From NCBI GenBank assembly GCA_032622095.1, contig CP136066.1, positions 59,736,609 through 59,800,608 of the forward strand: DNA of 64,000 nt, given 5' to 3'. Source of the stretch: Siphonodentalium dalli. Taxonomy: Eukaryota; Mollusca; Scaphopoda; Gadilida; Siphonodentaliidae. Below the pieces are notes generated by a model, which saw nothing but the letters and a program-made list of their open reading frames with translations, was not told the origin of the DNA and did not search any database. Numbering within the stretch: the first letter of the stretch is position 1; each line of letters opens with the position of its first letter. Below are positions 2,204 to 55,628 of the stretch, piece by piece. A program made the translations under genes and the position numbers.

Positions 2204-2497
2204 AAACCACATCGATGTGACATCTGCGGACAGGGGTACTACCAGCAGAGAAGCCTTTTATCCCATAACATGAGACGCCACCAGCCTCACAAGTATAAGT
2301 GTGAAACCTGCTATAAAACGTTCCCCCTCAGCTGGGAATACAAACGTCATCAAAATGTTCACATGATTTATAAACCGTTCAAGTGCCTGATTTGCAGCAG
2401 GCAATATAGCTCCAAATATGCTATGGAAGAACATTTTCGGCAGACTCATCCGGGACAATCAATGGATGACCAGTCGGCATCTTATGATGCTGGTTGA
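2204..2497 (+). CDS. Z1: alternative 3'-terminal exon with three C2H2 zinc fingers
   Basis: Probable last exon of a zinc-finger transcription factor. The exon starts after tctttttccccag and reads in phase 0 as KPHRC, 97 residues to its stop. Fingers: C5-C8-H21-H26, C33-C36-H49-H53 and C61-C64-H77-H82, then a 15-residue polar tail. Spacing is C-x2-C-x12-H-x4-H, then x3, then x4. The linker to finger 3 (MIYKPFK) resembles the KPF end of classical TGEKP linkers. An ATG exists upstream at 2162, but it lies in the conserved pre-acceptor intron shared with Z2 and would read through the polypyrimidine tract, so I take the acceptor as the true boundary. Finger 1 is nearly identical to Z2, while fingers 2 and 3 differ. 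DNA or RNA binding is expected from the family; the target is unknown. Confidence 0.87.
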   Translation, partial: KPHRCDICGQGYYQQRSLLSHNMRRHQPHKYKCETCYKTFPLSWEYKRHQNVHMIYKPFKCLICSRQYSSKYAMEEHFRQTHPGQSMDDQSASYDAG

Positions 2498-2589
2498 CGA
2501 GGACATGGTGATTTGGGCTGGTTTGGCATATCTAACCCTCAACTCTGGTTCAACTTTGGAAATATCATGGCTAAATCAATGGCAAGCCT

Positions 2590-2836
2590 TGAAATAGTGT
2601 GTCTGTCATTTGCAGAATGAGGTCCCCAGAGTGTGGAATTAGTGACACTATCCTGCTATGGGTGAACATCACCAACTTCAACTGGGGAACTTCAATCTTA
2701 TCCTACGTTTCCCATAGCAGTTGAGGCCTCAGCAGAATGAGGTTCCCAGAGGATGAATTTGGTGACGCTAACCTGCCATGCGGTATAGCATCACTAAATT
2801 CACCCTCTGGGGACCTCATTCTGCAAATGACTCTTG
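2590..2836. repeat. Family B inverted-repeat element, copy 1
   Basis: Starts with caagccttgaaatagtgtg and contains the arm gcagaatgaggt with its mirror ctcattctgcaaatga. The right terminus has decayed (ctcttggactt). Lies shortly downstream of Z1 and could supply part of its 3' UTR. Confidence 0.8.
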
Positions 2837-2879
2837 GACTTTCGTGACTTGACTTCCCCATTGGTTTGCAAGGCGGAAC

Positions 2880-3070
2880 AGCATGAATGTTTTTGAATAT
2901 TCTCGATTATTCATCCAGGGATAATCCTTAGATATTCTAGAATATTCCAGAATATTCCTGTCTCCCAGAATATTCTAGTAATTATAGTATATTCCTGGTG
3001 CCATTTAACATCCATGGATATTCTTGGAATTGTTTCCTTGATTATTCTAGAATAATTCTGCATTAGGAAA
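2880..3070. repeat. AT-rich tract of repeated attctagaatattc motifs
   Basis: Short degenerate repeats built on gaatattc and attctag motifs, several of them palindromic. No coding potential is seen. Confidence 0.5.
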
Positions 3071-3126
3071 ACAGGGCGACACTCTATTACAAGGCTTGAT
3101 CAACACCATTCCTGAACATACCGTAC

Positions 3127-3418
3127 ATAGTAATGCCCTAAATAATTGACTCCTTAACCTCATCAGAATTATGGGTAAATTTTCAGGATTTAGTAGGAAA
3201 TATGGCTTGTTGCCATTCATCGGAAAACTCTCACTGAGAGCTTTCCGGTGAATCGCAACAAGCCATATTTCCGACTAAATCCTAAATAATTGACTCCTTA
3301 ACCACAGCAGAATTATGGGTAATTTTTCAGGATTTAGTCGGAAATATGGCTTGTTGCCATTCATTGGAAAGCTCTCACTGCTGTGGTTAAGGAATCTATT
3401 ATTTAGGTCATTACTGTA
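3127..3418. repeat. Family A, compound copy
   Basis: Contains more than two arms: left arm, right arm, then a second left arm and a short terminal piece ending in cattactgta. It looks like one copy partly duplicated or invaded by another. Confidence 0.8.
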
Positions 3419-3939
3419 CATGTACTGCAACTTCTGTCTCGAAACGCATAAAACCTGCTAGAATTATGTCTGTGTGTGAAAATTTTGCTTCTTTGAACAC
3501 AAGTCACATTTCCGCCAGACAAACTGGACATCACTGAATAACTGATAAATGCAAAATGATTGATATATTCAATCACATTATAATTTTATTGCAAAAAGTA
3601 AGGACATGTTAATATTTATATATTTTATCAAAAAGCCAATTTGCACTGAGAAGCTTATGTAGAAACCACAAATTTGGTAGTGCCACAATATAAGGGTGAC
3701 GTTAGATCCCAACACCAATATCAGATTTTATTACACTCCTATGCGCAATTTCCATTGAAAACGCTGTTAATTAAAAATGGTAATGTCACTAGTGAATTAT
3801 GTCATTTCCCCATGACATCATTGGCATTACATTACGTTGCATACCGATCTAGACTGAATTTTTGATGGTTGATATTTCTCCACATCAGGACTTTCATGCA
3901 TTAATTCTGTGTGTTTTAATCATATTTGGCGAACCAAAT

Positions 3940-4125
3940 TGATGCAGAAGTGTAATAAATAGAGTAATCAATTAGTTCCGAGAATTACGTTCAATAATTC
4001 ACTCGAGTCCAGAGATGTTTGGGTAAGAAACCTGTGTGCTAATGCTAACTCGTTTCTTGCCGACGTCTCTCGTGAAATATTTAACGTAATTCTCGGAACC
4101 AATTGATTACTCTCTATATAACACA
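3940..4125. repeat. Small palindromic element, type gagtaatcaattggttcc
   Basis: Left arm gagtaatcaattagttcc with ccgagaattacg, mirrored by cgtaattctcggaaccaat at about 4090. A relative lies at 19460-19630. Non-coding foldback element. Confidence 0.65.
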
Positions 4126-4149
4126 TTGGATTATCTCTTCCTAACAAGT

Positions 4150-4505
4150 TTTTTTTAGTTTCCGGGTTCCGGGATATAAACTAATAAATATGAATGGAAG
4201 ACCCCTGTCCGGAATTTCTTCTATCAATTAATATTGATTTTATTTAAAAAAATTCTGGTATAATACGTGCAATCAATTTGGGACATGTTGCGGCCTGCCG
4301 AAGCGGTCAGATCATAGCAAGCGGGAGAACTCTATCTCTATCTGAGACTTCCTGATAGTTTCATTACGGTTATGTTCTAAAAATACTAACGAAAAATTGT
4401 CCCGATTGATTACCGCAGTATCAAAGAAAATATCGATATAAAATCAATATTAATTGATAAAAGCGTTTCCCGAAAGGTGTCTTCGACTCATATCTATTAT
4501 TTTAT
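4150..4505. repeat. Inverted-repeat element
   Basis: The arms contain atcaattaatattgatttta near 4224 and the mirrored taaaatcaatattaattgat near 4438, with further matching blocks around the centre. No ORF is supported. Confidence 0.6.
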
Positions 4506-4557
4506 ACCCTGGTAACTATAAAAAATTCATTTAGGAAGATATAATCGATCTTTAATG

Positions 4558-5340
4558 CTAGGTTACTGGTTAATGTTATATATTTTCCTGTTATATATAC
4601 TTATGTTTGCAATATTCACAGATGCTTACTACAGTAATGCCCGAAATAATCGACTCCTTAACCACAGCAGAATTATGGGTAATTTTTCAGGATTTAGGCG
4701 GAAATATGGCTTGTTGACATTCATCGGAAAGCTATCACTGAGAGCTTTCCGATGAATGGCAACAAGCCATATTTCCGACTAAATTAACCCATAATTATGC
4801 TGTGGTTAAGGAGTCGATTATTTAGGGTGTAGGTTACTGATTAATGTTATGTATTTTCCTGTTGTATAGACGCATGTTTGAAATATTCACAGATTCTTAC
4901 TATTAGATTATTATGTTAACTTGTTCATGTTCAACATTTTGATTGAACATTATTCCACATGAAGCGCGATATATTTCAATAAATACACAGTAATGCCCTA
5001 ATTAATCGACTGCTTAACCACAGCAGAATTATGGGTAACTTTTCAGGATTTAGTCGGAAATATGGCTTGTTGCCATTCATCAGAAAGCTCTCACTGGAAA
5101 TATGGCTAGTTGGCTCTCATCGGAAAGCTCTCACTGAGAGCTTTCCGATGAATGGCAACAAGCCATATTTCCGACTAAATCCTGAAAATTTACCCTTAAT
5201 TCTGCTGTGGTTAAGGAGTGGATTATTTAGGGTGTAGGTTACTGATTAATGTTAGGTATAATCCTGTTGTATAGACGCATGTTTGAAATATTCACAGATG
5301 CTTACTATTAGATTATTATGTTAACTTGTTCATGTTCAAC
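4558..5340. repeat. Segmental duplication: spacer plus family A copies, three spacers and two MITEs
   Basis: A unique-looking spacer (ggttactggttaatgtta ... ttcacagatgcttacta) occurs at about 4560, 4831 and 5235. Family A copies lie between them at 4631-4827 and 4989-5234. The right MITE ends are lost at the junctions (ttatttagggtgtaggtt), which indicates duplication by recombination, not transposition. Confidence 0.8.
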
Positions 5341-5820
5341 ATTTTGTTTGAATATTATTCCACTTGAAGCACGATAATATATTTGATATGCTGAAAACAT
5401 AGTTTCAATAAATATATTACAATTTATATGTTTTCAATTTCAAAACCAAAACAATATACACTTGTGGGCATAATTATCTCCAGGCAACGAAGTGCACAGA
5501 AATATGTTCTGTGAGTCTGCGTGTCCGTAACAGTTTTGGACCTCTCTGTCTCAGTCAATATTGGCCAGATTTGAATTATCTTTCATGAAAGAGAGTTTCT
5601 GATGATTAAAAACACGTACAATTGGTTTAAAATTGATATAAAGCGCTAAAAAAGTAAAAAATCCACCACCATAAAATCACAATCTGTCCTCCGTAGGCGT
5701 ACCAATGCAATGGCACAGTCGATGTTGGACCTTTTGATAATCTTAGTTCATTGCTAGACTCTTAGTGTTTGGTTACTAACCTATCAGTTGTATTCACTGA
5801 ATTAGGTCCATAACATATCT

Positions 5821-6218
5821 TTAGAGCACAATCCTATTGTTACAATCGTTCCCTGATTTTTGGTAAAGCACACCGATTCCCAATGTTGGCGAAGGAATAG
5901 TTCAGTGATTATCCCATTGTTAGGCACCCGCAACTCATAACATCAAATCGCACAGGTGCTTCAAAGTGGGAACAGTCCGTGTTGTTTCGGACATATCTAT
6001 TTACATTCAGTTCATGTTAATCACGTTTTTGGGCGTGGCTAACCGGCTATTGTGTCCAATCGCGGCCAGCGCACGGCACATTTCCAGTTTATTGCATTAT
6101 GTGTGATCAATTGTGCTCTAAAGTCGGTCAGAGCACGCGAATTGTTCTTTACCAGAATCAATCGAGTCGGAGACGAGATTTATTCTGGTAAAGAACAATT
6201 CTTGTGCTCTAACCATTA
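5821..6218. repeat. TIR element with ttagagcacaat ends, inserted upstream of Z2
   Basis: Left end ttagagcacaat, right end ttgtgctctaa. It contains an inner palindrome whose arms are cgaattgttctttaccag and the mirror ctggtaaagaacaattc. It separates ccataacatatctt from aactttgtagacg. Those two pieces lie almost together upstream of Z1 (ccataacatgtcttgaactttgtag), so the Z1 flank shows the pre-insertion state. Confidence 0.75.
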
Positions 6219-6295
6219 CTTAACTTTGTAGACGACATTGTATTTGGTCTAAAATGCCGATTCCCGAAGCTGATTGTTGTTTTCTTTTTCCCCAG

Positions 6296-6589
6296 AGACC
6301 ACATCGATGTGACATCTGCGGACAGGGGTACTACCAGCAGAGAAGTCTAATATCCCATAACATGAGACGCCACCAACCTCACAAGTATCGATGTAGCGTG
6401 TGCTCGAAAACATTCCCTCATGGCTGGGAGTATCGGCGACACCTCAACGTCCACCTCGCCAACAAACCGTTCAGTTGTGTCATATGCAACAAGCAGTACA
6501 GTTCAAAGTTCAGATTAGAGGAACATAATAGAATATACCATAATGTGGCTGACCAGATTATTGGGATACATACGATCTGTCCATTATAG
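6296..6589 (+). CDS. Z2: alternative 3'-terminal exon with three C2H2 zinc fingers
   Basis: Sister of Z1. The exon begins after ttttccccag in phase 0 as RPHRC and runs 97 residues. Fingers: C5-C8-H21-H26, C33-C36-H49-H53 and C61-C64-H77-H82. The linker LANKPFS before finger 3 is close to the classical KPF form. Finger 1 and the preceding intron match Z1 almost base for base, whereas fingers 2 and 3 do not. The last zinc ligand, H82, and the whole tail (NVADQIIGIHTICPL) fall inside the first unit of a 58-bp tandem repeat that continues for about 640 bp beyond the stop. The coding end is therefore also the start of a minisatellite. The upstream ATG at 6254 lies in intron. No polyadenylation site was assigned. 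Confidence 0.87.
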   Translation, partial: RPHRCDICGQGYYQQRSLISHNMRRHQPHKYRCSVCSKTFPHGWEYRRHLNVHLANKPFSCVICNKQYSSKFRLEEHNRIYHNVADQIIGIHTICPL

Positions 6590-7167
6590 AATATACCATA
6601 ACGTGGCTGACCAGATTATTGGGATACATACGATCTGTCCATTATAGAATATACCATAATGTGGCTGACCCGATTATTGGGATACATACGATCTGTCCAT
6701 TATAGAATATACCATAACGTGGCCGACCTGATTATTGGGATACATACGATCTGTCCGTTATAGAATATACCATAACGTGGCTGACCAGATTATTGGGATA
6801 CATACGATCTGTCCATTATAGAATATACCATAATGTGGCTGACCCGATTATTGGGATACATACGATCTGTCCATTATAGAATATACCATAACGTGGCTGA
6901 CCAGATTATTGGGATACATACGATCTGTCCATTATAGAATATACCATAATGTGGCTGACAGATTATTGGGATACATATGATCTGTCCATTATAGAATATA
7001 CCATAATGTGTCTGACCAGATTATTGGGATACATACAATCTGTCCATTATAGAATATACCATAACGTGGCTGACCAGATTATAGGGATACATACGATCTG
7101 TCCATTATAGAATATACCATAATGTGGCTGACCAGATTATTGGGATACATACGATCTGTCTATTTTA
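6531..7167. repeat. 58-bp minisatellite, 11 units, overlapping the end of Z2
   Basis: The motif gaatatacca recurs at 6531, 6589, 6647, 6705, 6763, 6821 and 6879 and onward, with a period of 58 bp and one unit short by a base or two. Units differ at a few sites (ataatgtgg or ataacgtgg; accag or acccg). The first unit is coding in Z2. The period is not a multiple of three and each unit carries a tag stop in the Z2 frame. Confidence 0.96.
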
Positions 7168-7945
7168 GTCTGCTCCAAGTGTTCATCGATGTAAGGCCAG
7201 TGTTTTTGAATTTTTTGGTTTACAGATTTTTCTATGGAGAAATTGTGTCGGAGGAGGGATAAAATAACATAGGGCTTACCAATTTGTTTTATTCATTCCC
7301 ATTGGAAAATTTGGTAGGAGAGAAAAAAATCCACATTGAAGTTGGATAAAAAGGCTTCCCCTTTATAGAACAAATATGAACATATAAGTACCGGTAGTAG
7401 GTTGTTATCGAGAAAGGATGTTGACATTTTAATACATGACATGTTTTAATTGACATTTTATAATTTTAACAATTTATTTATATGTTGCTAACCGGAAGCA
7501 TACAGAGTTTTCGTTCCCATTTATATCGTTTCGTGTACTTTAATTATAACGCATCGCAGTTCTTTTCCAGGCTATTGTTGACATTTTGCATTGTTCTATT
7601 GATGTTCATGACTGAGTCGCTCCACTTCTTTCCGACAGAAAATACAACTTGAATAATTTATTTCCTTTGTCAATTTTAGTAGTCGGTGGGAAAATATATT
7701 TTAGCAATTTGAAATTTTATGTTTATCATTTTTCGAAAACAAATTTGGTATGGCGAATCCGTAAACCAATAAATATAAATTTCTCTTGCCTAAACCAGCT
7801 CATGAAATGGATAGGGATAATACTGGTTTATGTCAAAGAACAGTTAAAATTGTCTTACCTTTCTATCGCGGACGTTAAGTGTAAATCGCCTGCTCATCTA
7901 AAATCACCAAATGACGGTAATAAAGTTTTGCATTTGTGAAAGTAA
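7168..7945. other. No gene seen
   Basis: AT-rich sequence after the minisatellite. A 96-codon frame at 7649-7939 has no recognisable motif and is not supported as a gene. Confidence 0.5.
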
Positions 7946-7947
7946 GC

Positions 7948-8096
7948 AAGCCTTGAAATAGTGTGTCTGTCATTTGCAGAATGAGGTCATAGCAGGCTAG
8001 CATCACCAAATTTACCCTCTGGGAACCTCATTCTGCTGAGGTGTAAGCAGAATGAGGTCCCCAGAGGGTGAATTTGGTGATGCTATTTCAAGGCTT
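7948..8096. repeat. Family B, short copy
   Basis: Both ends are present: caagccttgaaatagtgtg on the left and atttcaaggcttg on the right. The interior is reduced to two short gcagaatgagg palindromes. It abuts the hAT-like element that starts about 100 bp later. Confidence 0.85.
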
Positions 8097-8195
8097 GGTT
8101 CTGAGCTCCATAAGATATTTCCACTGAAAATAGTAATTTAATGCGAAAACTATTTTATCACAATGTTTACATAATTTAAAAAAATACAAACCCAG

Positions 8196-9373
8196 TAGTG
8201 CTGGGCGGTATGACGATATATCGGGTATACCCGGTTTTAATTTTGATATCGTCAATAATATCGTCTGAAATAAAAATATCGTAATACCGTCCCAAGTTGT
8301 AATATTCTCCATGTAGGTTGAAACCCATCATATGGTCCCAACAAACAGCGAAGTTAGAGTAAGTATAATAGTCCCAAACTTCCCGGAAATACGCAGTCGA
8401 AAACGTTTTAAAACATCGGAGCACGTGCCTGTCAAGTTGGATATGCTTCGTCAGAAACATCAAAGAGATACTATATAGTAGCATCAGTTGGCTACACTGT
8501 GAGATTGGTATGTCGCGTGCATGCGACTGGCACAATGACCTCCTTTCAAGTTGGTGCAGCTTGCTCTATCAACCGTAACCGGTTGCTTGGAGACGGATTA
8601 CGATGTCAGATTTGATCGTCTCAATGTGTGCAAATTGCGAGTAAAATGATTTTGTGGACATGTGCCAAACGGATCATGGCATTGCTATCGCTTCAACAAA
8701 TGTCAAATTCACAAACTAATTGAACATGATTGTCTATATTTATTTTCCTCAGCTAAAAAAATGCCGACGCAAATTCATTTCACGTCGGCTTTTGCCTCGG
8801 CACTGCCCATTGTGGCATTGTCGACGCTAATTTCCAGGGCTGCCGTATATGGACATTGAAGTCCCACGGTGCTACCAACTACCAATTACCACTGATAAAT
8901 AGTCTCACAAACAACCAATTCCTCACGAATTAATAAAATGGAAATTTGAAACCGAATGCGGTGCTTAATGTGTGCATGGTGTTGAGCGCTATGGTCAAAG
9001 GGATATAACTCTAAAAAATGTATGCGAAAACGCACGTGGGCCGTGTTATATGATTATATCCCTTTGTTTCAAAGTTATTATTTCTCCGTCGACAAACTGT
9101 CAATTGTTGCAGACGAGTGGTCATTATATACATGTATACTGTGATGTTACTGATAATTGTTCAATACACATTTACTCGACCTCTCATGACCCACAAATTG
9201 TAAATAAAACGTAGGGATGTATTGTGCAAACTTTATTCATGAAATATTGCATATATTGTACATTGTACTTACCAATTGTAATATACCAAAATAATATCGC
9301 GATAATATCGTGTATCGCGATGTTGTCACCATAATATCGCGATATTTTTTGGGGCCAATATCGCCCAGCCCTA
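8196..9373. mobile_element. Non-autonomous hAT-like element, about 1.18 kb
   Basis: Terminal inverted repeats tagtgctgggcggtat and atatcgcccagccccta-type (right end atatcgcccagcccta), flanked by an 8-bp duplication aaacccag / aaactcag with one mismatch. Subterminal regions are rich in atatcg motifs. The 8-bp duplication and end sequence fit the hAT superfamily. No transposase is recognisable; a 119-codon minus-strand frame at 8176-8535 starts outside the element and has no convincing domain. Confidence 0.82.
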
Positions 9374-12165: not shown

Positions 12166-12169
12166 ACAT

Positions 12170-14133: not shown

Positions 14134-14731
14134 ATACAGTAAGCTCTAATTAATCGACTCCTTAACCCTTTACCCAACAGAAGGGCCCTGTGCCAATGCA
14201 TTCTCTTATATATGCGAGTCGACCATAGGTCGCCTCGCATATATAAGAGAATGCATTGGCTTAACAAATTAAAAATTATAAAATTGTTAAAGAATGTAAG
14301 AAAAAATGGTAAAAAGTGTTAAAAAAAGATTTTTTTTAGGCCAATGCATTCTCTTATATATGCGAGGCGACCTATGGTCGACTCGCATATATAAGAGAAT
14401 GCATTGGCACAGGGCATAACTGTAACTATCACAATGTGGTCAAGGAGCCGGTTCCAATGATATCCATATTTGTATGGTTCTATTGAGACAGACCGAAGAT
14501 ATTTTAGGCTGTTGAAGCTTTATTTGGCCGGTTTTGGCCGGTTTGTTGGGTAAAGGGTTAACCACAGCAGAATTATGGGTAACTTTTCAGGATTTAGTCG
14601 GAAATATGGCTTGCTGCCATATCACAGAGCTTTCCGATGAATATCAACAAGCCATATTTCCGACTAAATCCTGAAAAGTTACCCATAATTCTGCTGTGGT
14701 TAAGGAGTCGATTAATTAGAGCATTACTGTA
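14134..14731. repeat. Family A MITE interrupted by family C, upstream of Z3
   Basis: The left 30 bp (acagtaagctctaattaatc ...) and the remaining palindrome (14562-14731) are separated by a TTAA-flanked element. It ends 83 bp before Z3. Confidence 0.9.
14162..14561. mobile_element. Family C, piggyBac-style TTAA MITE, nested
   Basis: TTAA on both sides; ends ccctttacccaaca and tgttgggtaaaggg. The interior holds two perfect palindromes of about 68 bp built from ccaatgcattctcttata and tatgcgagtcgacc with their mirrors. The target, cctTTAAcc of family A, is seen uninterrupted in other A copies. Assignment to piggyBac style rests on the TTAA target and end sequence only; no transposase is present. 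Confidence 0.88.
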
Positions 14732-14814
14732 GTGTCACTAAAATCACCCTCTGGGACCTCATTCTTCAAATGACAGACACACTATTTCAAAGCTTGTTTC
14801 TCATTTTCCTTCAG

Positions 14815-15081
14815 AAACCGAGAGAATGTCGACTGTGCGGCCGTATTTACCACACAAAGGAAACTTACAAGAATCACTTTCGGAGGTTCCACAAGTTACA
14901 TGAGCACGCATGCACAGTGTGTTCCAAGACGTTCGCCACAAACTATGAACGACTGAGGCACATGAGTGTTCACGGCGCGACCGATTCCTTCAAGTGTCAA
15001 TTGTGTGGAAAAACTTACTGCTCGTCAGAATCATTATCCAAACACATAACCATTCATCATCTGGGCAACATATTATGTTAA
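14815..15081 (+). CDS. Z3: alternative 3'-terminal exon with three C2H2 zinc fingers
   Basis: The exon starts after tctcattttccttcag, phase 0, as KPREC; 88 residues. Fingers: C5-C8-H21-H26, C33-C36-H49-H53 and C61-C64-H77-H82, then LGNILC. Geometry is identical to the other exons. The linker to finger 3 (GATDSFK) has lost the KP of classical linkers. An ATG-led frame from 14770 comes from the end of a family B transposon and the acceptor, so it is not a true start. The exon is wedged between transposons: family B ends 17 bp upstream, and the stop codon is part of ttaaaggtactcaatc, the end of another repeat also seen at 11995 and 29380. The terminal residues may therefore be trimmed from an ancestral longer tail. 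Confidence 0.86.
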   Translation, partial: KPRECRLCGRIYHTKETYKNHFRRFHKLHEHACTVCSKTFATNYERLRHMSVHGATDSFKCQLCGKTYCSSESLSKHITIHHLGNILC

Positions 15082-15330
15082 AGGTACTCAATCAGATCAG
15101 ACGCTCCTAAATTACTATTTCTTTGGCTTCGGGGGTAAAAAATATATGATTTGAGTCGAGGAACCCACCCATCAAAGCTCAGAGTGATCAGATATCAATT
15201 TTTGAAGTTTGTTATTTCATTTGTTTGTGGCCCAGAAACATGCGATCAAATGGATGGTCTCGGTCATAATTGCGGACGAAGATGGATAACTCTAAAAATA
15301 CTCAAGCTATACCCTAAGTGCTTCACATTA
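15079..15330. repeat. TTAA-type repeat abutting the Z3 stop codon
   Basis: Starts ttaaaggtactcaatc, and resembles in reverse the sequences at 29150-29385 (ending gattgagtacctttaa) and 12985-13030. It contains the shared block cacccatcaaagctcagag. It probably provides the 3' UTR of Z3. Confidence 0.65.
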
Positions 15331-15429
15331 TTACCCCAGCTGTTAAGTAATGCCGAGTCTTCTGCATGCAGCTATGCATTTTTATAGGCGTTTCACAAGA
15401 GCTGCTTTACACATACCCAACAACCAGGT

Positions 15430-16180
15430 CCCTATTTCTCGTCTGAGTACGACAAATCGAGAACAGTACAAGTGACCTTGCCCAAGGGTCACAACCTGAT
15501 GGGAGATTTGAAACAGCATGTGGTTATAATAGCACACTCACCGCTTAACCCTTTACCCAACAAACCAGGATTTAGTCGGAAATATGGCTTGTTGATATTC
15601 ATCGGAAAGCTCTGTGATATGGCAGCAAGCCATATTTCCGACTAAATCCTGAAAAGTTACCCATAATTCTGCTGTGGTTAACCCTTTACCCAACAAACCG
15701 GCCAAAACCGGCCAAATAAAGCTTCAACAGCCTAAACTATCTTCGGTCTGTCTCAATAGAACCATACAAATATGGATATCATTGGAACTGGCTCCTTGAC
15801 CACATTGTGATAGTTACATTTATGCCCTGTGCCAATGCATTCTCTTATATATGCGAGTCGACCATAGGTCGCCTCGCATATATAAGAGAATGCATTGGCC
15901 TAAAAAAAATCTTTTTTTAACACTTTTTACCATTTTTTCTTACATTCTTTAACAATTTTATAATTTTTAATGTGTTAAGCCAATGCATTCTCTTATATAT
16001 GCGAGGCGACCTATGGTCGACTCGCATATATAAGAGAATGCATTGGCACAGGGCCCTTCTGTTGGGTAAAGGGTTAATCCGGCCAAGCCATTGTTGTGGA
16101 GACGATAGTCCACAAGGAGGGTTGCGAACTCATGCCGTTGTGTTGACACCATTACAAATCCAACACTCTAACTATGACTC
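15430..16180 (-). repeat. tRNA-like SINE interrupted by a TTAA composite element
   Basis: The part before the insertion (caagtgaccttgcccaaggg) and after it (ccggccaagccattgttg ... gcgaactcatgcc) align with the uninterrupted copy at 22470-22670. On the minus strand the distal part resembles a tRNA head, with a B-box-like gagttcgcaacc and an A-box-like segment. Family assignment is inference. Confidence 0.6.
15545..16077. mobile_element. Composite TTAA element: C end + family A palindrome + complete family C
   Basis: Outer ends are both family C termini (TTAAccctttacccaaca at 15545, tgttgggtaaagggTTAA ending 16077). An internal third C terminus lies at 15678-15681. Between 15566 and 15677 lies part of a family A palindrome. 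From 15566 on, the block is the reverse complement of 14162-14660, including private variants such as gttgatattcatcgg. This suggests that A plus C moved together, using outer TTAA ends. Confidence 0.8.
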
Positions 16181-18675: not shown

Positions 18676-18936
18676 AACTTTTGTGCTGAATGCGGGAGGA
18701 CTTATCAGTGGAAGGAAGCATTCGCCGCGCATTTAAAGCGATTCCATCGACCACATCAGTTCAGCTGTGAAGTCTGCCACAAGTCGTTCGCAACAAACTT
18801 CGAGAGAGTTCGCCACCAGAACACACACCTCGATGATAAACCGTTCGTCTGCACGATATGCGACCGGAAGTACTCATCGAAAATTAGTCTCACGCACCAC
18901 ATTCGCAGCAGTCACTTGGACTGTGTTAGCAACTGA
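18676..18936 (+). CDS. Z4: alternative 3'-terminal exon with three C2H2 zinc fingers
   Basis: Found by reading from the acceptor ctatctctccacag: there is no ATG in the exon, so start-based ORF finding misses it. Phase 0, first residues NFCAEC, 86 residues. Fingers: C3-C6-H19-H24, C31-C34-H47-H51 and C59-C62-H75-H80, then LDCVSN. The linker LDDKPFV before finger 3 is close to Z2. The N-terminal lead before the first cysteine is two residues shorter than in Z1-Z3. The absence of any start codon is strong evidence that these units are internal to a spliced transcript. Finger 2 (ATNFERVR helix) is most similar to that of Z3 (ATNYERLR). Confidence 0.86.
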   Translation, partial: NFCAECGRTYQWKEAFAAHLKRFHRPHQFSCEVCHKSFATNFERVRHQNTHLDDKPFVCTICDRKYSSKISLTHHIRSSHLDCVSN

Positions 18937-24137: not shown

Positions 24138-24404
24138 ATTCTCAGATCATGGGAGTGTGCACTGTGTGGCCGGGCGTACTCCAGTATTTCAGCATTCTGT
24201 TTGCACAAGAGGCGGTTCCACGGCTCGAAGGCATTTAGTTGCTTGATTTGTAATAAGTCCTACGCTGTCCAATCGGAACTCTCGAGGCACATGCTTAGCC
24301 ACACGAACCGCCGAGACTGTTCTTGTCCCCATTGCGAAAATACATATCCGTTGAGACAATCACTCAACAGGCACATGCGTGAGAAGCACAGAGACTTAAT
24401 TTGA
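24138..24404 (+). CDS. Z5: alternative 3'-terminal exon with three C2H2 zinc fingers
   Basis: The exon begins after tgtttaattttttgcag, phase 0, as ILRSWEC; 88 residues. Fingers: C7-C10-H23-H28, C35-C38-H51-H55 and C63-C66-H79-H84, then RDLI. The linker before finger 3 is TNRRDCS, with an extra cysteine just ahead of the finger that could confuse ligand assignment; C63 and C66 keep the array spacing. About 95 bp of the upstream intron (blocks ccacccacttctcac and ccattctgtttaattt) matches the upstream of Z6. Finger 1 keeps the array motif CGRxYxS, and finger 2 keeps glutamate at helix position +3. Confidence 0.86.
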   Translation: MLRSWECALCGRAYSSISAFCLHKRRFHGSKAFSCLICNKSYAVQSELSRHMLSHTNRRDCSCPHCENTYPLRQSLNRHMREKHRDLI

Positions 24405-25710: not shown

Positions 25711-25741
25711 TTAACACTCCATTTTGTTTAATTTCTTCCAG

Positions 25742-25838: not shown

Positions 25839-26102
25839 AGACCGAGATGGAAGTGCACGATATGTGGACGGAACTATTTGAGCAGGGATGCAGTTCTCTT
25901 ACACAATAAACGCATACATAAGCCCAAGGATTTCAATTGCTCCGTCTGTTCCAAGCCGTATGCCACAAGCTGGGAACTAAATAGTCACATGCGTGTTCAC
26001 ACAAATGATCGATTCCGGTGCCCGTACTGTGTTAGCGCTTATGTGCGCAATGCCGATCTGTTAGCACATTTACGAGAAAAACATAGAGGAGAAAAATTTT
26101 GA
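25839..26102 (+). CDS. Z6: alternative 3'-terminal exon with three C2H2 zinc fingers
   Basis: The exon begins after tgtttaatttcttccag, phase 0, as RPRWKC; 87 residues. Fingers: C6-C9-H22-H27, C34-C37-H50-H54 and C61-C64-H77-H82, then RGEKF. Founder-like member of the closely related group Z6-Z10, which share CGRxYLSR in finger 1, a WEL helix in finger 2 and NDRF before finger 3. Closest to Z7: fingers 1 and 2 differ at only a few residues, but finger 3 differs at helix positions +1, +2 and +3 (N, A, D against K, Y, N). The internal ATG at 25878 lies within finger 1 and cannot be a sensible start. Confidence 0.88.
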   Translation, partial: RPRWKCTICGRNYLSRDAVLLHNKRIHKPKDFNCSVCSKPYATSWELNSHMRVHTNDRFRCPYCVSAYVRNADLLAHLREKHRGEKF

Positions 26103-29603: not shown

Positions 29604-29888
29604 AGACCGAGATGGAAGTGCGAAATATGTGGACGGAACTATTTGAGCAGGGATGCAGTTCTATTACATGATAAACGCATTCATAAGCCCAAGGATTTCA
29701 CTTGCTCCGTCTGTTCCAAGCCGTACGCCACAGGCTGGGAACTAGATAGTCACATGCGTCAACACACAAACGATCGATTCCAGTGCCCGTACTGTGTTAG
29801 GTCGTATGGCCGAAAATACAATCTGTTGGCACATTTACGAGAGAAGCATGAAGGCAGGGACCAGCCTAGAGGGCGACTTGGGAGATAG
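29604..29888 (+). CDS. Z7: alternative 3'-terminal exon with three C2H2 zinc fingers
   Basis: The exon starts after ctttaatttcttccag, phase 0, as RPRWKC; 94 residues. Fingers: C6-C9-H22-H27, C34-C37-H50-H54 and C61-C64-H77-H82, then a 12-residue basic tail EGRDQPRGRLGR. This tail is longer than in Z6 because it is encoded by the first unit of a 31-bp tandem repeat that also supplies the stop. The upstream frame from 29529 (MGHTTSN...) reads through intron and the polypyrimidine tract and is not taken as the start. Finger 3 helix residues differ from Z6 while the scaffold is the same. Confidence 0.88.
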   Translation, partial: RPRWKCEICGRNYLSRDAVLLHDKRIHKPKDFTCSVCSKPYATGWELDSHMRQHTNDRFQCPYCVRSYGRKYNLLAHLREKHEGRDQPRGRLGR

Positions 29889-31994: not shown

Positions 31995-32252
31995 ATACCT
32001 GGACTGGTGTGCACACTATGTGGACGGAATTACTTGAGCAGAGATTCATTTCGCTTACATGTTAAACGCTTCCATAAGGCGAAGAATTTCAACTGCTCCG
32101 TCTGTTCCAAGTTGTACGCCACAAGCTGGGAACTAAATAGTCACATGCGTCTACATTCAAATGATAGATTCCCTTGCTCATGCTGCGATAAGTCGTATGT
32201 ACGGAAAGCAAAACTTTTGGCACATTTGCGGAATAAGCACGGAAGGACCTAA
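31995..32252 (+). CDS. Z8: alternative 3'-terminal exon with three C2H2 zinc fingers
   Basis: The exon starts after tgtttaatttcttccag, phase 0, as IPGLVC; 85 residues. Fingers: C6-C9-H22-H27, C34-C37-H50-H54 and C61-C64-H77-H82, then GRT. Finger 3 opens with CSCC, so an extra cysteine sits between the two ligands. The tail is only three residues. The 3' flank (aagcaagttctcacag) matches that of Z9 (aagcaggttttcacat), showing that the duplicated unit extends past the stop. An ATG-led frame at 31846 comes from the family A arm and is not real. Confidence 0.88.
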   Translation: MPGLVCTLCGRNYLSRDSFRLHVKRFHKAKNFNCSVCSKLYATSWELNSHMRLHSNDRFPCSCCDKSYVRKAKLLAHLRNKHGRT

Positions 32253-35382: not shown

Positions 35383-35640
35383 ATACCCGGTTTGGAGTGT
35401 AAAATATGTGGAAGGACATACCTGAGCAGGGGTGCATTTCGTATACACGACCAACGTTTCCATCAGGACAAGACTTACAGTTGTAGCGTCTGTTACAAGT
35501 TATATGGCACAGAATGGGAGTTAAACAACCACATACGTGTACACACAAACGATAGATTCCCATGTACTCACTGTGATAAGACATATGTGAGGAAATCAAA
35601 TCTGGTGGCACATATAAGGGAAAAACATGCCGGGAACTAA
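35383..35640 (+). CDS. Z9: alternative 3'-terminal exon with three C2H2 zinc fingers
   Basis: The exon starts after tgttaatttcttccag, phase 0, as IPGLEC; 85 residues. Fingers: C6-C9-H22-H27, C34-C37-H50-H54 and C61-C64-H77-H82, then AGN. No ATG occurs ahead of finger 1 in this frame, which again points to splicing from an upstream exon. Finger 2 helix is GTEWELNN and finger 3 is VRKSNLVA. The upstream block cttacactccattctg is shared with Z10. Closest relative Z10. Confidence 0.88.
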   Translation: MPGLECKICGRTYLSRGAFRIHDQRFHQDKTYSCSVCYKLYGTEWELNNHIRVHTNDRFPCTHCDKTYVRKSNLVAHIREKHAGN

Positions 35641-38433: not shown

Positions 38434-38691
38434 ATACCCGGGCTGAAGTGCACACTATGTGGACGGATCTATTTAAGCAGGGGTGCATTCCGCTTGCACG
38501 ACAAACGTTTCCACAAGGCAAAGAATTTCACTTGTACCGTCTGTTACAAGTCATACGCTACAGCTTGGGAACTTGCTAACCACATGCGTTTACACACTAA
38601 CGACCGGTTCCCTTGCCCTCATTGTGACAGGTCATATCTTCGCAAGCCGGATATGTTTGCGCATATGCGAGATAAACATGCAGGGATCTGA
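38434..38691 (+). CDS. Z10: alternative 3'-terminal exon with three C2H2 zinc fingers
   Basis: The exon starts after attttaatttcttccag, phase 0, as IPGLKC; 85 residues. Fingers: C6-C9-H22-H27, C34-C37-H50-H54 and C61-C64-H77-H82, then AGI. Finger 2 helix is ATAWELAN; finger 3 is LRKPDMFA, with a proline at +2, unusual inside a recognition helix. The frame led by an ATG at 38389 comes from the family B right end and intron. A family A copy begins 19 bp after the stop, so the 3' UTR probably runs straight into a hairpin. Confidence 0.88.
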   Translation: MPGLKCTLCGRIYLSRGAFRLHDKRFHKAKNFTCTVCYKSYATAWELANHMRLHTNDRFPCPHCDRSYLRKPDMFAHMRDKHAGI

Positions 38692-39082: not shown

Positions 39083-39660
39083 CACTTCCATGACTGGAGC
39101 TTCCTGGAATATTGCGAAAACCCTGTGCCAATGCATTCTCTTAACCCTTTACCCAACAGAAGGGCCCTGTGCCAATGCATTCTCTTATATATGCGAGTCG
39201 ACCATAGGTCGCCTCGCATATATAAGAGAATGCATTGGCTTAACACATTAAAAATTATAAAATTGTTAAAGAATGTAAGAAAAAATGGTAAAAAGTGTTA
39301 AAAAAAGATTTTTTTTAGGCCAATGCATTCTCTTATATATGCGAGGCGACCTATGGTCGACTCGCATATATAAGAGAATGCATTGGCACAGGGCATAACT
39401 GTAACTATCACAATGTGGTCACGGAGCCGGTTCCAATGATATCCATATGTGTATGGTTCTATTGAGACAGACCGAAGATATTTTAGGCTGTTGAAGCTTT
39501 ATTTGGCCGGTTGTGGCCGGTTTGTTGGGTAAAGGGTTAAATATGCGAGTCTCCGGCCCATATTGCCTCCATATATAAGAGAATGCACTGGCTTACAAGG
39601 ACAAGGTAAATGTTGTTAGGCCAATGTATTCTCTTACATGTATATATGTAAGGCTCCATG
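39083..39660. repeat. Family D repeat split by a family C element
   Basis: The left part ends cattctcttaa and the right part resumes at aatatgcgagtctcc. The undisrupted relatives read cattctcttatatatgcgag. Confidence 0.8.
39141..39540. mobile_element. Family C TTAA MITE nested in family D
   Basis: TTAA at both ends and both 68-bp palindromes; nearly identical to the copy at 14162-14561. Confidence 0.92.
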
Positions 39661-39913
39661 CAAGCCTTGAAATAGCATGCCTGTCATTTGCAGAATGAGG
39701 TCCCCAGAGGGTGAATTTAGTGATGCTACCCCGCATAGCGGGCTGGCATCACCAAATTCACCCTCTGGGGACCTCATTCTGCTTACACCTCAGCAGAATG
39801 AGGTTCCCAGAGGGTGAATTTGGTGATGCTATCCCGCTATGCGGGGTAGCATCACTAAATTCACCCTCTGGGAACCTCATTCTGCAAATGACAGACACAC
39901 TATTTCATGGCTT
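39661..39913. repeat. Family B, short form
   Basis: Ends caagccttgaaatag and ctatttcatggcttg with two internal palindromes around ccccgcatagcggg and cccgctatgcgggg. Confidence 0.87.
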
Positions 39914-39932
39914 GGCTCCATGTGTGAGATCT

Positions 39933-40323
39933 TTAACCCTTTACCCAACAAAGCGGCCAAAACCGGCCAAATAAAGCTTCAACAGCCTAAAATATCTTCG
40001 GTCTGTCTCAATAGAACCATACAAATATGGATATCATTGGAACCGGCTCCTTGACCACATTGTGATAGTTACAGTTATGCCCTGTGCCAATGCATTCTCT
40101 TATATATGCGAGTCGACCATAGGTCGCCTCGCATATATAAGAGAATGCATTGGCCTAAAAAATAATCTTTTTTTACCATTTTTTCTTACATTCTTTAACA
40201 ATTTTATAATTTTTAATGTGTTAAGCCAATGCATTCTCTTATATATGCGAGGCGACCTATGGTCGACTCGCATATATAAGAGAATGCATTGGCACAGGGC
40301 CCTTCTGTTGGGTAAAGGGTTAA
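39933..40323. mobile_element. Family C TTAA MITE, opposite orientation
   Basis: Starts ttaaccctttacccaacaaa and ends ctgttgggtaaagggttaa. Inverted relative to the copy at 39141, 390 bp away, so the two can pair. Confidence 0.9.
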
Positions 40324-40547
40324 TGCTGTACCAGTCAGCTCCCTTCATGAAAGGGTTAATGAGATGGTGAGTGACTACATGCTTGAATTAAAACAAATTG
40401 AATGGGACGAGTCAACTTTCCAAAAATCACAAATTCACAGGGTTCACACATTCACACATGCTGGCCATTTGGTCATTTTCAAATGTCAGCATTCTCGGTT
40501 AATGACAGGTGGACACAAAAGAGAGCACGCAATTTACAAAACATTGG

Positions 40548-40812
40548 ATAATGTAAATATTCAATATAACATTCCTCATCTACTGCAAGAGAAATTGGGC
40601 CGAATTCAAGCCTTGAAATAGCGTGCCTGTCATTTGCAGAATGAGGTTCCCAGGGGGTGAATTTAGTGATGCTAGCCAGCTATGCGGGGTAGCATTACTA
40701 AATTCACCCTCTGGGGACCTCATTTTGCAAATGACAGACACACTATTTCAAGGCTTGGTAAATATTCAATATAACATTCCTCATCTACTGCAAAGAGAAA
40801 TTGGGCAGAATT
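40548..40812. repeat. Family B short copy between two direct repeats of about 55 bp
   Basis: Family B spans about 40606-40757. On each side stands gtaaatattcaatataac ... ctactgcaa ... attgggc, far longer than a transposon target duplication. This implies a local duplication that includes the element boundary. Confidence 0.8.
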
Positions 40813-40943
40813 GGCAGCATCATGGCAGTATTAAATCCACTGCTTACTCTTTACAATGAAGTCATGGTGCCAAAGTCTTGCTGTGACTTTCTTCATACGA
40901 TTCATGAGTTTTCTACCCTCATAATGGTTTTGTGACATTTGAT

Positions 40944-41345
40944 TTAACCCTTTACCCAACAAACCGGCCAAAACCGGCCAAATAAAGCTTCAACAGCCTA
41001 AAATATCTTCGGTCTGTCTCAATAGAACCATACAAATATGGATATCATTGGAACCGGCTCCTTGACCACATTGTGATAGTTACAGTTATGCCCTGTGCCA
41101 ATGCATTCTCTTATATATGCGATTCGACCATAGGTCGCCTCGCATATATAAGAGAATGCATTGGCCTAAAAAAAATCTCTTTTTTTAACACTTTTTACCA
41201 TTTTTTCTTACATTCTTTAACAATTTTATAATTTTTAATGTGTTAAGCCAATGCATTCTCTTATATATGCGAGGCGACCTATGGGCGACTCGCATATATA
41301 AGAGAATGCATTGGCACAGGGCCGTTCTGTTGGCTAAAGGGTTAA
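40944..41345. mobile_element. Family C TTAA MITE
   Basis: TTAA ends; same orientation as the copy at 39933. Right end tgttggctaaagggttaa has one change. Confidence 0.9.
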
Positions 41346-49230: not shown

Positions 49231-49446
49231 CTACACCATATGAATTAAATATTTTGGCATTATAGCAATACCTATTTGAATGATAATGTTTGAAAAATAA
49301 TATTTTTGGGAAATAGAGCGATTTTTCAGCAAAAAATAAATGTTTCGGCTCCAAATGGCAGGACAATCCAAATTAACCAATACTTTTTTCATATCAAGTA
49401 GAGGTATGGTATGATATAGTAATTTTAACCCCAACAATATTGGCAA
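49231..49446 (-). CDS. 71-codon frame in the right arm, partner of 42975-43181
   Basis: Minus-strand mirror of the left-arm frame, open over the same stretch, ending in the same AIMPKYLIHMV-like C-terminus. The same doubts apply: long inverted arms will preserve an open frame for some time even without selection. Confidence 0.2.
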   Translation of the reverse strand: MPILLGLKLLYHTIPLLDMKKVLVNLDCPAIWSRNIYFLLKNRSISQKYYFSNIIIQIGIAIMPKYLIHMV

Positions 49447-49699
49447 ATAGGTTAGGACATAGCCACATTGCTCGTTTTACAAAAATCGTTAATCATCAAA
49501 GTTTCTGGAAAAAGTGACTTGTGGGTATTGTTCATCGTCGATTTGACAATAGCCACCACCAATTCCGTCATTTTTCACTATCGATTTCGTCAACAGTATA
49601 CATTTCTCCTTCAAAAAAAGTTGGTTTCAACTTGTTCTACCGTGGGTAGGGATATCTCGAAAACTAGAGCTCTTTTTCAGTTTGGCCGCTGCACTATAA

Positions 49700-50425
49700 C
49701 CCAGCCCACTGTGAAATTATCCATAGCATGTTGAACTTGGCTTTTCAAATTGAATATAGCCACCAACAACTGGTTCTTCTGTCAGTTGTTTTGTGTATTA
49801 TATGTAACCATTTTAGGTGAGTGGATACCACAGCTGTCAGGGTAAGGTCAACGTCAACATCAACCAATACGAATCAGTAGTCCCTGTACCCTCGTCCGTC
49901 AAAAATACTATACCACTCATCTGAATTTGAACCATACACATGATATTGAACAGCCCTCGGGTAGTATCCAATTTCACACACTCTTTAACTAAGCCCTAAA
50001 CTCATAAATTACATATACACAATCTGTGCACGGCTCACCCGAGGCCATCTTATTATTGTTATTAATTTCTATATTCACCATACTGGGGATGGCAGGAAGA
50101 CAGTCTTGCCAGACTATGCCACCCCCAACAATATACGACCGAATTATCCATAATTTTCACCATTATTATGTAATAGATATGTGTATTGCAAATAAAATAT
50201 CTTATCCTATCCTAAAAGCGAACATCACAGCTAGCACTCTAGAATGACGGAAACAAAGTCAGAGTAATTCACCAGAAGAAATTAGTGAAAACCAAAACGT
50301 ACAGCTTAAAACATTTGCCACATGAAATACCTTATAATATACTGATGCTGCAAAACGGCTTAAAACATTTGCCGTATGAAATTCCCTATAACCTACTGTT
50401 GGTGCAAAATGCATGGGCTGTGTGG
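49700..50425. other. No gene seen
   Basis: AT-rich sequence. A short internal direct repeat (acttaaaacatttgcc near 50305 and 50360) is present. Confidence 0.4.
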
Positions 50426-50428
50426 AGA

Positions 50429-50476
50429 TGTACAATAATGCCCTTATGGAGTCGATTAATTAGGGCATTACTGTAC
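50429..50476. repeat. Family A relic, tips only
   Basis: Left tip acaataatgccct joined to ggagtcgattaattagggc and attactgta. About 47 bp; the whole palindromic middle is deleted. Confidence 0.8.
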
Positions 50477-50601
50477 ACAAGGATTTGTCACAGTATCCCA
50501 AGTTCACACAACACATACTAAGGTTTGTCACAGTATTCAAAATTTACTATACATATATATTCTAATGTTTGAGAACTATATTATACCGTATTTCATTGCA
50601 T

Positions 50602-50758
50602 GATCCGACCACAGGTCCCCAGAACAAAAATTGACCCCACCCCCAATAATACTTAATAACAAAAATTTACCCCACCCCCAATAATACTTAATCCTATAGG
50701 ATTAAGTATTATTGGGGGTGGGGTCAATTTTTGTTCTGGGGACCTGTGGATCCGACCC
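50602..50758. repeat. Long palindrome with a duplicated left arm
   Basis: Left arm gatccgaccacaggtcccc through ccaccccaataatacttaat-like blocks, then a partial second copy of the arm, then the mirrored right arm ending gacctgtggatccgacc. Perfect or nearly perfect over about 45 bp per arm; the tip is tcctatagga. Confidence 0.88.
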
Positions 50759-50759
50759 A

Positions 50760-51890
50760 TTATATAATGCCGGTAATTGACGATCGTTGTATAACATGAA
50801 TATCGCTAGCTGTACTGAAATGTATTGTTGTACGAAAATGTGACATGTGAATTCCATCCTGTTGTCTGTTTACATTCTGTACGCAGCACGCTATATCGAT
50901 GTTTGTTTATTTAGTTTAAACAAATATTTCATAGATATAAGCATTTAATACCCCAAAGCATGTAATTTATCTGGCACTATTTCTTGACTTTGAGACTGGG
51001 GACAAACTTCCGGCTTACCTTAAACAAGTCGGTTATAGTTTCTCGTCCACTTAAGCAGTTTATAGCGAAATTTACGAAACTCGCAAGAGGCTCAGTTCAG
51101 ACCCAATTGACTGGACTTGTTTTTGTAAATTTCGCTATAAACTGGGGACGGTAAATTCTCACGCAAATTTAGCCATAAACATACGATTTTGTTGTAAAAA
51201 TATAGAGATCCAGGGGGGCTGGGAACACCACAGAATACAAGGGTAAACCTATCTTCGGTAACATGGACAAGGGTGTTCATTATCTAGGTACACATTCCGA
51301 AGCGCCACTTGGACAATTCCATATATAGTCAGTTAAATGAAAAAACAGGAGCATAATAGAAGTATGCCTGGTGTTTTGAAATTTGGAAAATATAGGTATA
51401 CATATGACAGAGTATGCGTACCAGTATCGTAGAATCACGCACTATCATAAATGAAATAGTTATAGGTAGAGTATTAAATTTTTTTTAGTTTCATGATTGT
51501 CCCATACCGTTAGTTTCAGTAAAAGATGGGAGCGTGGTACATAGTTAGGTGTTACAAATTTAGAAATTAGAAACGTAAGCATAGGCCGCGAGTTTTCGAA
51601 AGGGTTAATTTTGAAATTTATAATTTTTGTATGTGAGTAAGCAGTTGTATAATGTAAGTGTAGGTGTAAGTCTGTAGTAAAATATTAAATATCACTGGAA
51701 TCGTCGTCAGTTATGTACATGTACCTGGTGATGGAGTGTTTAAACAACAGACCACCGCTTTTCGACACTTTTTAACATAAAAATACGATTTTGACCCCGA
51801 AAACGGTTGTTTGCATATAGAAAGTAGTTGTACTAAATTGAATACGTTTTTAACACAAAGCGTTGCCATTGGTTGTTGGTGTACCAATTT
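50760..51890. other. No gene seen
   Basis: Contains an inverted pair tatagcgaaatttac / gtaaatttcgctata (51062 and 51125). Nothing else recognised. Confidence 0.45.
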
Positions 51891-51898
51891 CAAATCTA

Positions 51899-52290
51899 TT
51901 AACCCTTTACTCAACAAAACGGCCCAAAACGCCCAAATAAAGCTTCAACAGCCTAAAATATCTTCGGTCTGTCTCAATAACACCATACAAATATGGATAT
52001 CATTGGAACCGGTTCATTGACCACATTGTTATGGTTACAGTTATGCCCTGTGCCAATGCATTCTCTTATATATGCGAGTCGACCATAGGTCGCCTCGCAT
52101 ATATAAGAGAATGCATTGGCCTAACAAATTTTTTTTTTTTAACACTTTTTACCTTTTTTTCTTACATTCTTTAACAATTTTAAAATTTTTTCTTACATTT
52201 TTTAACAATTTTTATAATATTTTTCTACATTCTTTGACAATTTTATCATTTTTAATATGTGGTAAGCCAATGCATTCTCTTATATATGCT
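51899..52290. mobile_element. Family C TTAA MITE, right end missing
   Basis: Left end ttaaccctttactcaacaaa. The spacer is expanded with repeats of tttcttacattctttaac. It breaks off within the second palindrome at cttatatatgcttg. Older copy than the others. Confidence 0.82.
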
Positions 52291-52299
52291 TGTTGGTGT

Positions 52300-53395
52300 A
52301 CTAATTTGAATATATGTTAAGCATCAAGCATTACCATTGTTGTATAGTTGTACTTATTTGAATATATAGCACTGCCGTTGGTTTTCGTTTAGTGTTCGGT
52401 CCGAATATTCGAATATTCGAATATTCGCTCGTAAAAATAAATATTCGAATATTCGAATAATTATTTGACTATTCGAATATTCGAGAATAATCTCCGGGTA
52501 ATTGTTTCCTGGTTTGTTATTAGTCTGAGGGTCTGTTAAAAGTATAGTCTATATTCCATTGACCATAAACGAATTAATATGACGTAACTGTAACGTTCTG
52601 ATTTGATTGGCGTCATGACGTCGAAATAATTGTATTGGCTAGTTGTAAAGCAGACCGTGCTTGCATGTGGTCATAGGAAGCGGACCTATAAGGCATCTTT
52701 TTGTTTTGTTTGCGCGTTGTCACTTTACCCCGAAGTCGCCAAATTAGCTAAGTTCTATCTCGGTATACTATACCGGCCACCAGTGTATCGCCGTTCTCTG
52801 TCGTAGGGCTGATCTCTACTGAAAAACGCAACCGGTTGAAGTCGCAGACTGTCCGAATGTTACACTTCTTGAACAAGAACCTTTAAGCCATGCATGGAAC
52901 ATTGACTACTTGAACTTCATAAACAGATAAACTCTTGCTATTAAGCCAAATGACTTTTTTTTATCTCTCTTTTTTTCGTATAGCATGTGCTTGGATAAAT
53001 ATGCTATTTCATTAAATAATAAATTGGTTCCAAAACATGTTATCTATATAATTTTATAATTTATCTAAATATTCGAATACTATTCGAATATTCGCTCGTT
53101 ATTCGAACCGAATATTCGAATACCGAAATCCGTCGAATACCGAACACTATTTTCGTTGTACTAATTTGAATATATATTAAGTATCGAGCATTGTCATTGG
53201 TCTTAGTTGTAGTCGTATTAAGTATCAAGCATTGTCATTGGTTTTAGTTGTAGTTGTATTAAGCATCAATCATTGCCGTTGGTTGTAGTTTTATTAATGT
53301 ATTAAGCATCAATCATTGCCGTTGGTTATAGTTGTTGTTTTATTAATGTATTAATCATCAAGCATTGCCCCTTGTTTTAGTTGTATTAATGTGAA
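52300..53395. repeat. Short tandem repeats (attgccgttggttgtag type), split by a hAT-like element
   Basis: Units of about 45-55 bp with aagcatcaagcattgcc and ttggttttagttg occur at 52315-52389 and 53150-53395. Confidence 0.75.
52390..53149. mobile_element. Non-autonomous hAT-like element, 760 bp
   Basis: Ends tagtgttcggt and accgaacacta, flanked by a perfect 8-bp duplication ttttcgtt (52382-52389 and 53150-53157). Both subterminal regions are dense in gaatattcgaatattcg motifs. No transposase frame. Confidence 0.92.
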
Positions 53396-53989
53396 TATAG
53401 CCACGAGAACCAAAATAGTGGTTCTTTGTTTTGTTCTTCTGTCAATTTTATTTTTTCTGTGTGCTGAATGTACATTAATTATGATTTATCCACTCACCAA
53501 CATTACACGATATCGAATTCTTCCGGACACTTGTCAGCTGAACACTCTGTTTTTATTTGAAGTAAGTATGTTCTCCAATACCTGTTTTTCTCCAATGCCC
53601 TTACTTGTAATTTGTATGGTATGGTAATTTGTATAGAACACCACTACCTTTACCTCCTAAAGGATACCTTACTCGTACTTAAATTCGCGCAGTACTATTT
53701 TTTTTGGGTGGCAGCGTTACAAGCCCATGTGATATATATACTAAGCGACCAGAGCCACATGTTGCACTTCATCAAGCATTAAGTTTAGAACGTCTCACCA
53801 GGCCCAAAGGACTATTTCGCGCAATAGTGTGGTTTGATGCTCCGATTATTTAACAACACAAATATCTAAACGCACAACAACACACATGGCAAACATCAGT
53901 AAAAAACAAACACAACAGTTCTAATTGGCTGCTAAATAGTTGTTGTCGAATTTCGCGCGATAGACTGGCCCTTGTCACGGTGCATGGGA

Positions 53990-54475
53990 ATCACGTGCTT
54001 TCGAGGTTGGTGAGTACCACACATACAAAATGGCCGAGGCTGGCGCAAACGCACAAATAACATAATATGTGAGGAACTTACAGAAAACATAGCATGTTAA
54101 CTGTTACGAGCATATGCTAGTTTTATTTTGGAAACAAGTTGATACCTTATTTGTTCGGAAATACTCCGTGATTTTCTATAACATTCTGAACAAAGTTGCC
54201 AGTCGGAGGTGCGTGGAATACATCACCAGTCCACACACCTTGATGAATCCTTCTACTGACAACTTTGGTCAGAATGTTAGAGCAAACAAATGTGAATTTG
54301 GACACAAATGGTGTATCAGCTTGTTTGAAAAAATAGTATGGCATCTGCCCGCAGCTGACAAAATACTTTTTAATATGTCATATCTTAGTTTATAACATTT
54401 TTCCTCGTTTCTGGTCGCGTTTTCGATCGCCTCTGCCATTTTGAATGCGTGACACTCATCAACTCGAAACTACAT
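53990..54475. repeat. Nested inverted-repeat element
   Basis: The outer arm tcgaggttggtgagtac with aaatggccgaggc is mirrored by gcctctgccattttg and actcatcaactcgaaa. The inner arm ggaaacaagttgatacc is mirrored by ggtgtatcagcttgttt. Parts recur at 24740-24880. Confidence 0.72.
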
Positions 54476-54551
54476 GATTCTCCACCGTGCTTGTCTTTGT
54501 TCACAGAAAAGTTGAAAATGTAGTAACCTGACCCTCCCTGTCCCAATGTAC

Positions 54552-55294
54552 AAGCCTGCAAATAGCGTGCCTGTCATTTGCAGAATGAGGTCCCCAGAGG
54601 GTGAATTTAGTGATGCTATCCCGCATAGCGGGCTAGCATCACCAAATTCACCCTCTGGAGACCTCATTCTGCTTAGGCCCCATCTTCTGGGAAGTATCTA
54701 TTGTATCAAATTAACATTGGTTTTAGTTACTTTTTCCCTTCTGGGAAGTTTCTATATCCCCTAATTTGCAGAAGATAAAATTCTAAATTGAGGTGCCCAA
54801 TGGGTGAATATCACCAACTTCAAAACTGGGAACTTCATTCTGATCCTAGGTCTCCCATAGCAGTTGATGGCCTAAGCAGAATGAGGTCCCCAGAGGGTGA
54901 ATTTAGTGATGCTAGCCCGCTTTGCGGGATAGCGTCACTAAATTCACCCTCTGGGGACCTCATTCTGCTCAGGCCCCATCTTCTGGGAAGTATCTATTGT
55001 ATCAAATTAACATTGGTTTTAGTTACTTTTTCCCTTCTGGGAAGTTTCTATATCCCCTAATTTGCAGAAGATAAAATTCTAAATTGAGGTGCCCAATGGG
55101 TGAATATCACCAACTTCAAAACTGGGAACTTCATTCTGATCCTAGGTCTCCCATAGCAGTTGATGGCCTAAGCAGAATGAGGTCCCCAGAGGGTGAATTT
55201 AGTGATGCTAGCCCGCTTTGCGGGATAGCGTCACTAAATTCACCCTCTGGGGACCTCATTCTGCAAATGACAGACACACTATTTGCAGCCTTGC
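54552..55294. repeat. Family B element with a 296-bp internal tandem duplication
   Basis: Ends caagcctgcaaatagcg and ctatttgcagccttg (matching changes in both ends). The interval from 54660 is repeated from 54956 with period 296 and almost no differences, giving three palindromes instead of two. It ends about 65 bp before Z11. Confidence 0.92.
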
Positions 55295-55358
55295 CAATGT
55301 ACACACATGCAATTAAGAGTTTACTCCGTTTCACTCCCCTCTTTTCCGTCTATTCCAG

Positions 55359-55628
55359 ATACAGAGAATCGAGTGCACCGCATGTGGGCGAACCTACTTG
55401 AGTAAGACAGCGTTTAATCTTCACGAGAAGCGTTACCATAATGAGCCGAGATTTCCATGCATGCTGTGTCCAAGGAAATTTGGCGCAAAGGCCGACCTTG
55501 ACTACCATTTGCGACGTCACTCCGACATCCGAGAATTTGTCTGTCCTTATTGTGATAAGTCGTACATTGCCAAATGTCATCTTGCTTGCCATATACGAGT
55601 TAAACACAGATGTGTCAATTCACAGTGA
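55359..55628 (+). CDS. Z11: alternative 3'-terminal exon with three C2H2 zinc fingers
   Basis: The exon starts after cttttccgtctattccag, phase 0, as IQRIEC; 89 residues. Fingers: C6-C9-H22-H27, C34-C37-H50-H54 and C62-C65-H78-H83, then RCVNSQ. Most diverged of the Z6-Z11 group: finger 2 is CMLCPRKFGAKADLDYH, with aspartate instead of glutamate at helix +3 and alanine at -1, and the linker to finger 3 (SDIREFV) is one residue longer. It stands alone, 17 kb from Z10, across two clusters of transposons. Upstream is a family B element, downstream (55687) a family A palindrome. No further exon of the array is seen beyond it. Confidence 0.86.
   Translation: MQRIECTACGRTYLSKTAFNLHEKRYHNEPRFPCMLCPRKFGAKADLDYHLRRHSDIREFVCPYCDKSYIAKCHLACHIRVKHRCVNSQ

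Follow-up and report, generated by a model that had tools for sequence, protein, structure and literature searches.

Eleven zinc-finger exons and the array around them

A stretch of 64,000 nucleotides from Siphonodentalium dalli (contig C6, C6:59736609-59800608; "the window", in which a coordinate equals the C6 genome coordinate minus 59736608) carries eleven zinc-finger exons, considered here as alternative 3' ends of a single BTB gene. The observation at the root of the original prediction is confirmed: all eleven units lie on one strand, each with an acceptor, phase-0 entry, three C2H2 fingers and a private stop (Table 1). The finger modules are CX2CX12HX3-5H repeats, and Pfam C2H2 families scored above cut-off in all seven of the eleven window units that were run.

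A search profile built from these eleven units, which fingerless terminal exons would escape, identified 16 further units (U1-U16) between the window and the common exons described below, as well as six downstream of it. Two rows, 59705793 (an overlapping frame) and 59899174 (E 0.008), were left out of the count. The array thus comprises at least 33 units over 218 kb (C6:59688348-59906628), all on the plus strand, a lower bound, the array having been followed as far as C6:59906628. A stop and a phase-0 acceptor are present in 33/33 units, and this acceptor is the best-scoring one in 32; for unit 59867616 the second-best was used, the best being also in phase 0. Strict fingers number four in one unit, three in 20, two in 10 and one in 2. 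An additional copy of the acceptor tail that the units share is followed by no exon and may be what is left of a lost unit. Inverted repeats nearly identical to one another, as long as 0.5 kb and with a 92-nt palindromic core (AATGCATTCTCTTATATATGCGAG), occur repeatedly in the array (window 14162-16077 and 39141-41345).

Common BTB exons upstream of the window

The common exon had been expected outside the window, with BTB sequences in the flanking scaffold, and this is where three common exons, together encoding a BTB domain, were found. A BTB profile search of the genome (2,226,750,531 bases, 9 contigs; 150 of 226 candidates scored) yielded 144 matches, among them three on C6 upstream of the window and on its strand, at 59659663 (locus A), 59493563 (locus B) and 59348483 (locus C). 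Locus A comprises three phase-consistent common exons, 78-69 kb upstream of the window. The exon 1 donor is in phase 0 and top-scoring in all three loci. Exon 2 begins with AHK/AHR in phase 0 and, again in the three loci, ends with a phase-2 donor at the close of the open frame, whose score is the best only in locus C and the second in A and B. Exon 3, in loci A and B, possesses a phase-2 acceptor and an identical phase-0 donor, gag|GTGGGT. Once joined, the three exons form one open frame, which encodes 404 residues for locus A and 460 for B. The BTB domain is complete in the joined exons, exons 1 and 2 of locus A scoring 49.5 bits as compared to 32.1 for exon 2 alone. A common part that ends in a phase-0 donor predicts exactly the phase-0 entry of the zinc-finger exons.

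Judging from the sequence, the window very probably belongs to one very long gene, composed of common BTB exons and of at least 33 alternative zinc-finger last exons. Exons 1-3 would supply the BTB N-terminal part, ending at the phase-0 donor C6:59667534; this donor would be spliced to the phase-0 acceptor of one chosen terminal unit, which would contribute its own zinc fingers and private stop. One gene could in this way give rise to dozens of different DNA-binding proteins. The proposal that DNA-binding variants are multiplied through last-exon choice gains support, at the level of gene structure, from the upstream BTB exons of matching phase.

Table 1. Features of locus A and its array (window positions where indicated, otherwise C6 positions)
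Feature	Position	Strand	Evidence or remark
Common exon 1	C6:59658174-59658299	+	ATG; conserved across loci A, B, C
Common exon 2	C6:59659702-59660342	+	comparison of loci A, B, C
Common exon 3	C6:59667090-59667534	+	A vs B: 53.6% identity, 125 columns, E 3.5e-35
Units U1-U8 (starts)	C6:59688348, 59690051, 59694803, 59701509, 59703644, 59705645, 59708024, 59712370	+	profile
Units U9-U16 (starts)	C6:59714802, 59715458, 59719104, 59719887, 59726482, 59730570, 59731788, 59733635	+	profile
Terminal unit	window 2204..2497	+	three intact fingers, phase-0 acceptor, stop
Terminal unit	window 6296..6589	+	three intact fingers, phase-0 acceptor, stop
Terminal unit	window 14815..15081	+	three intact fingers, phase-0 acceptor, stop
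Terminal unit	window 18676..18936	+	three intact fingers, phase-0 acceptor, stop
Terminal unit	window 24138..24404	+	three intact fingers, phase-0 acceptor, stop
Extra acceptor tail	window 25720..25741	+	nhmmer E 0.034; no exon behind
Terminal unit	window 25839..26102	+	three intact fingers, phase-0 acceptor, stop
Terminal unit	window 29604..29888	+	three intact fingers, phase-0 acceptor, stop
Terminal unit	window 31995..32252	+	three intact fingers, phase-0 acceptor, stop
Terminal unit	window 35383..35640	+	three intact fingers, phase-0 acceptor, stop
Terminal unit	window 38434..38691	+	three intact fingers, phase-0 acceptor, stop
Terminal unit	window 55359..55628	+	three intact fingers, phase-0 acceptor, stop
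Downstream units (starts)	C6:59867616, 59879695	+	profile
Further downstream units (starts)	C6:59882182, 59900611, 59904885, 59906452	+	profile; last ends 59906628

Other explanations of the array

The units might instead be 3' exons with promoters of their own, trans-spliced to a BTB mRNA as in mod(mdg4), or between alleles as in lola. Trans-splicing is documented for both genes in passages of PMC4667647, and a single primary transcript would have to span as much as 239 kb, which is long. This explanation is nevertheless rather unlikely, as every unit found sits downstream of the common exons on the same strand, the arrangement that cis-splicing needs. A private promoter and 5' exon for each unit, named by the original prediction as evidence against itself, receives no backing from the window, where promoters were assessed only through the similarity of flanks: units resemble one another over the exon plus 22-94 nt of intron tail, and further out only next to a shared repeat. 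The search for a second coding block co-duplicated with the window units returned only four weak, unrelated pairs.

It is improbable that few terminal exons are in use and that the bulk of the array consists of decaying copies. Four units (U10, U14, U16 and 59904885) have damaged or missing fingers and appear decayed, and the units with one or two strict fingers point the same way. Conversely, the eleven window units are all intact, at least two fingers are retained in 31/33 units, and all 12 pairs of units for which dN/dS could be estimated give values below 0.4.

Small separate genes, each with its own 5' exon or receiving its AUG from a trans-spliced leader, as in flatworms, are highly improbable. 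Of the 22 units beyond the window, 6 have an ATG within the exon before the first finger, and 27 of all 33 units lack one; furthermore, an in-frame BTB donor of matching phase lies upstream, the architecture is repeated in a second locus, and no co-duplicated block accompanies the window units. A reading in which the units serve as internal exons of a single long protein with many fingers, to which the phase-0 acceptor of all units lends itself, can practically be dismissed, as a stop follows 3-15 residues past the last finger in each of the eleven window units and none has a good donor before it.

Comparison with lola and the paralogous loci

To our knowledge, it is mainly in insects that a single transcription factor is known to have a large array of alternative DNA-binding ends. 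Broad-complex, fruitless and tramtrack have few alternatives, usually with two fingers per end. Drosophila lola combines common N-terminal BTB exons with many alternative 3' exons, most of them encoding zinc fingers, and at least 20 isoforms are given in passages of PMC1947980. The present locus shares with lola the BTB common part and the many alternative zinc-finger 3' exons, but exhibits at least 33 terminal exons as compared to at least 20 isoforms, three-finger modules being common among them. The predicted lola-type architecture is supported by the same-strand upstream BTB exons and by the phase-0 acceptor and stop of all units. By analogy, the locus would work like lola; the likeness is one of architecture.

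In mod(mdg4), too, many variable 3' ends share one BTB part, and passages of PMC4667647 give at least 31 isoforms. Its 3' parts are mostly of the FLYWCH type and some are encoded by the opposite strand, whereas those found here are C2H2 and all on one strand. In these respects the locus does not resemble a mod(mdg4)-type trans-spliced locus: the plus-strand frames of the window showed C2H2 only, and every unit located is on the plus strand.

TTK-type BTB domains, to which that of lola belongs, carry a conserved N-terminal motif. By eye, and with no TTK profile run, neither this motif nor any other sign of the TTK type was seen in the joined BTB domain. Its best matches are ZBTB17 and BACH1, the closest solved domains by sequence including a ZBTB17-NACC1 fusion (E 3.5e-11), BACH1, PLZF and Kelch-like 26; the TTK-type CG6765 ranks below ZBTB17 and BACH1 and matches residues 41-115 only (E 1.6e-5). 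For these vertebrate ZBTB and related BTB factors (ZBTB17, BACH1, PLZF), we know of no arrays of alternative terminal finger exons. According to passages of PMC11426971, the TTK type is confined to arthropods in a search that took in Mollusca, Annelida and other groups. If the species is lophotrochozoan, the likeness to lola would either have arisen convergently or predate TTK.

The chances are about even that this is an independently arisen, non-arthropod lola-like system with a general ZBTB-type BTB and at least 33 ends, belonging to a family of loci, new ends being born by exon-sized duplication and by conversion from one exon to another. If true, it would be a second and larger case with a different BTB type, beside a paralogous locus of the same build, and such multiplying of transcription factors would have arisen more than once. 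Last-exon choice, gene conversion, and the birth and death of exons could be studied side by side at this locus, and a gene catalogue that lists each unit as a small zinc-finger gene of its own would be in error.

The three BTB loci form a row on C6, at 59.35, 59.49 and 59.66 Mb, the paralogues C (C6:59345258-59349105) and B (C6:59492549-59527999) lying upstream of locus A on the same strand. Locus B, of which 38 kb were read, possesses the same three common exons followed by at least five finger exons, all in phase 0, some with long tails past the fingers. Genome-wide, 25 of the 144 BTB matches, B and C included, start at profile positions 20-24 and reach at least 105, which is what a BTB exon sharing the intron boundary of exon 2 should give. 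One of these, C4:171263730, has the same exon 2 with its phase-2 donor, but neither exon 3 nor fingers within 18.5 kb; the 25 matches hence count a shared exon cut and do not imply arrays. A separate BTB cluster is located on the minus strand at C5:69780664-70203419, where 17 tandem fragments lie within 0.43 Mb, nine of them with one in-frame stop.
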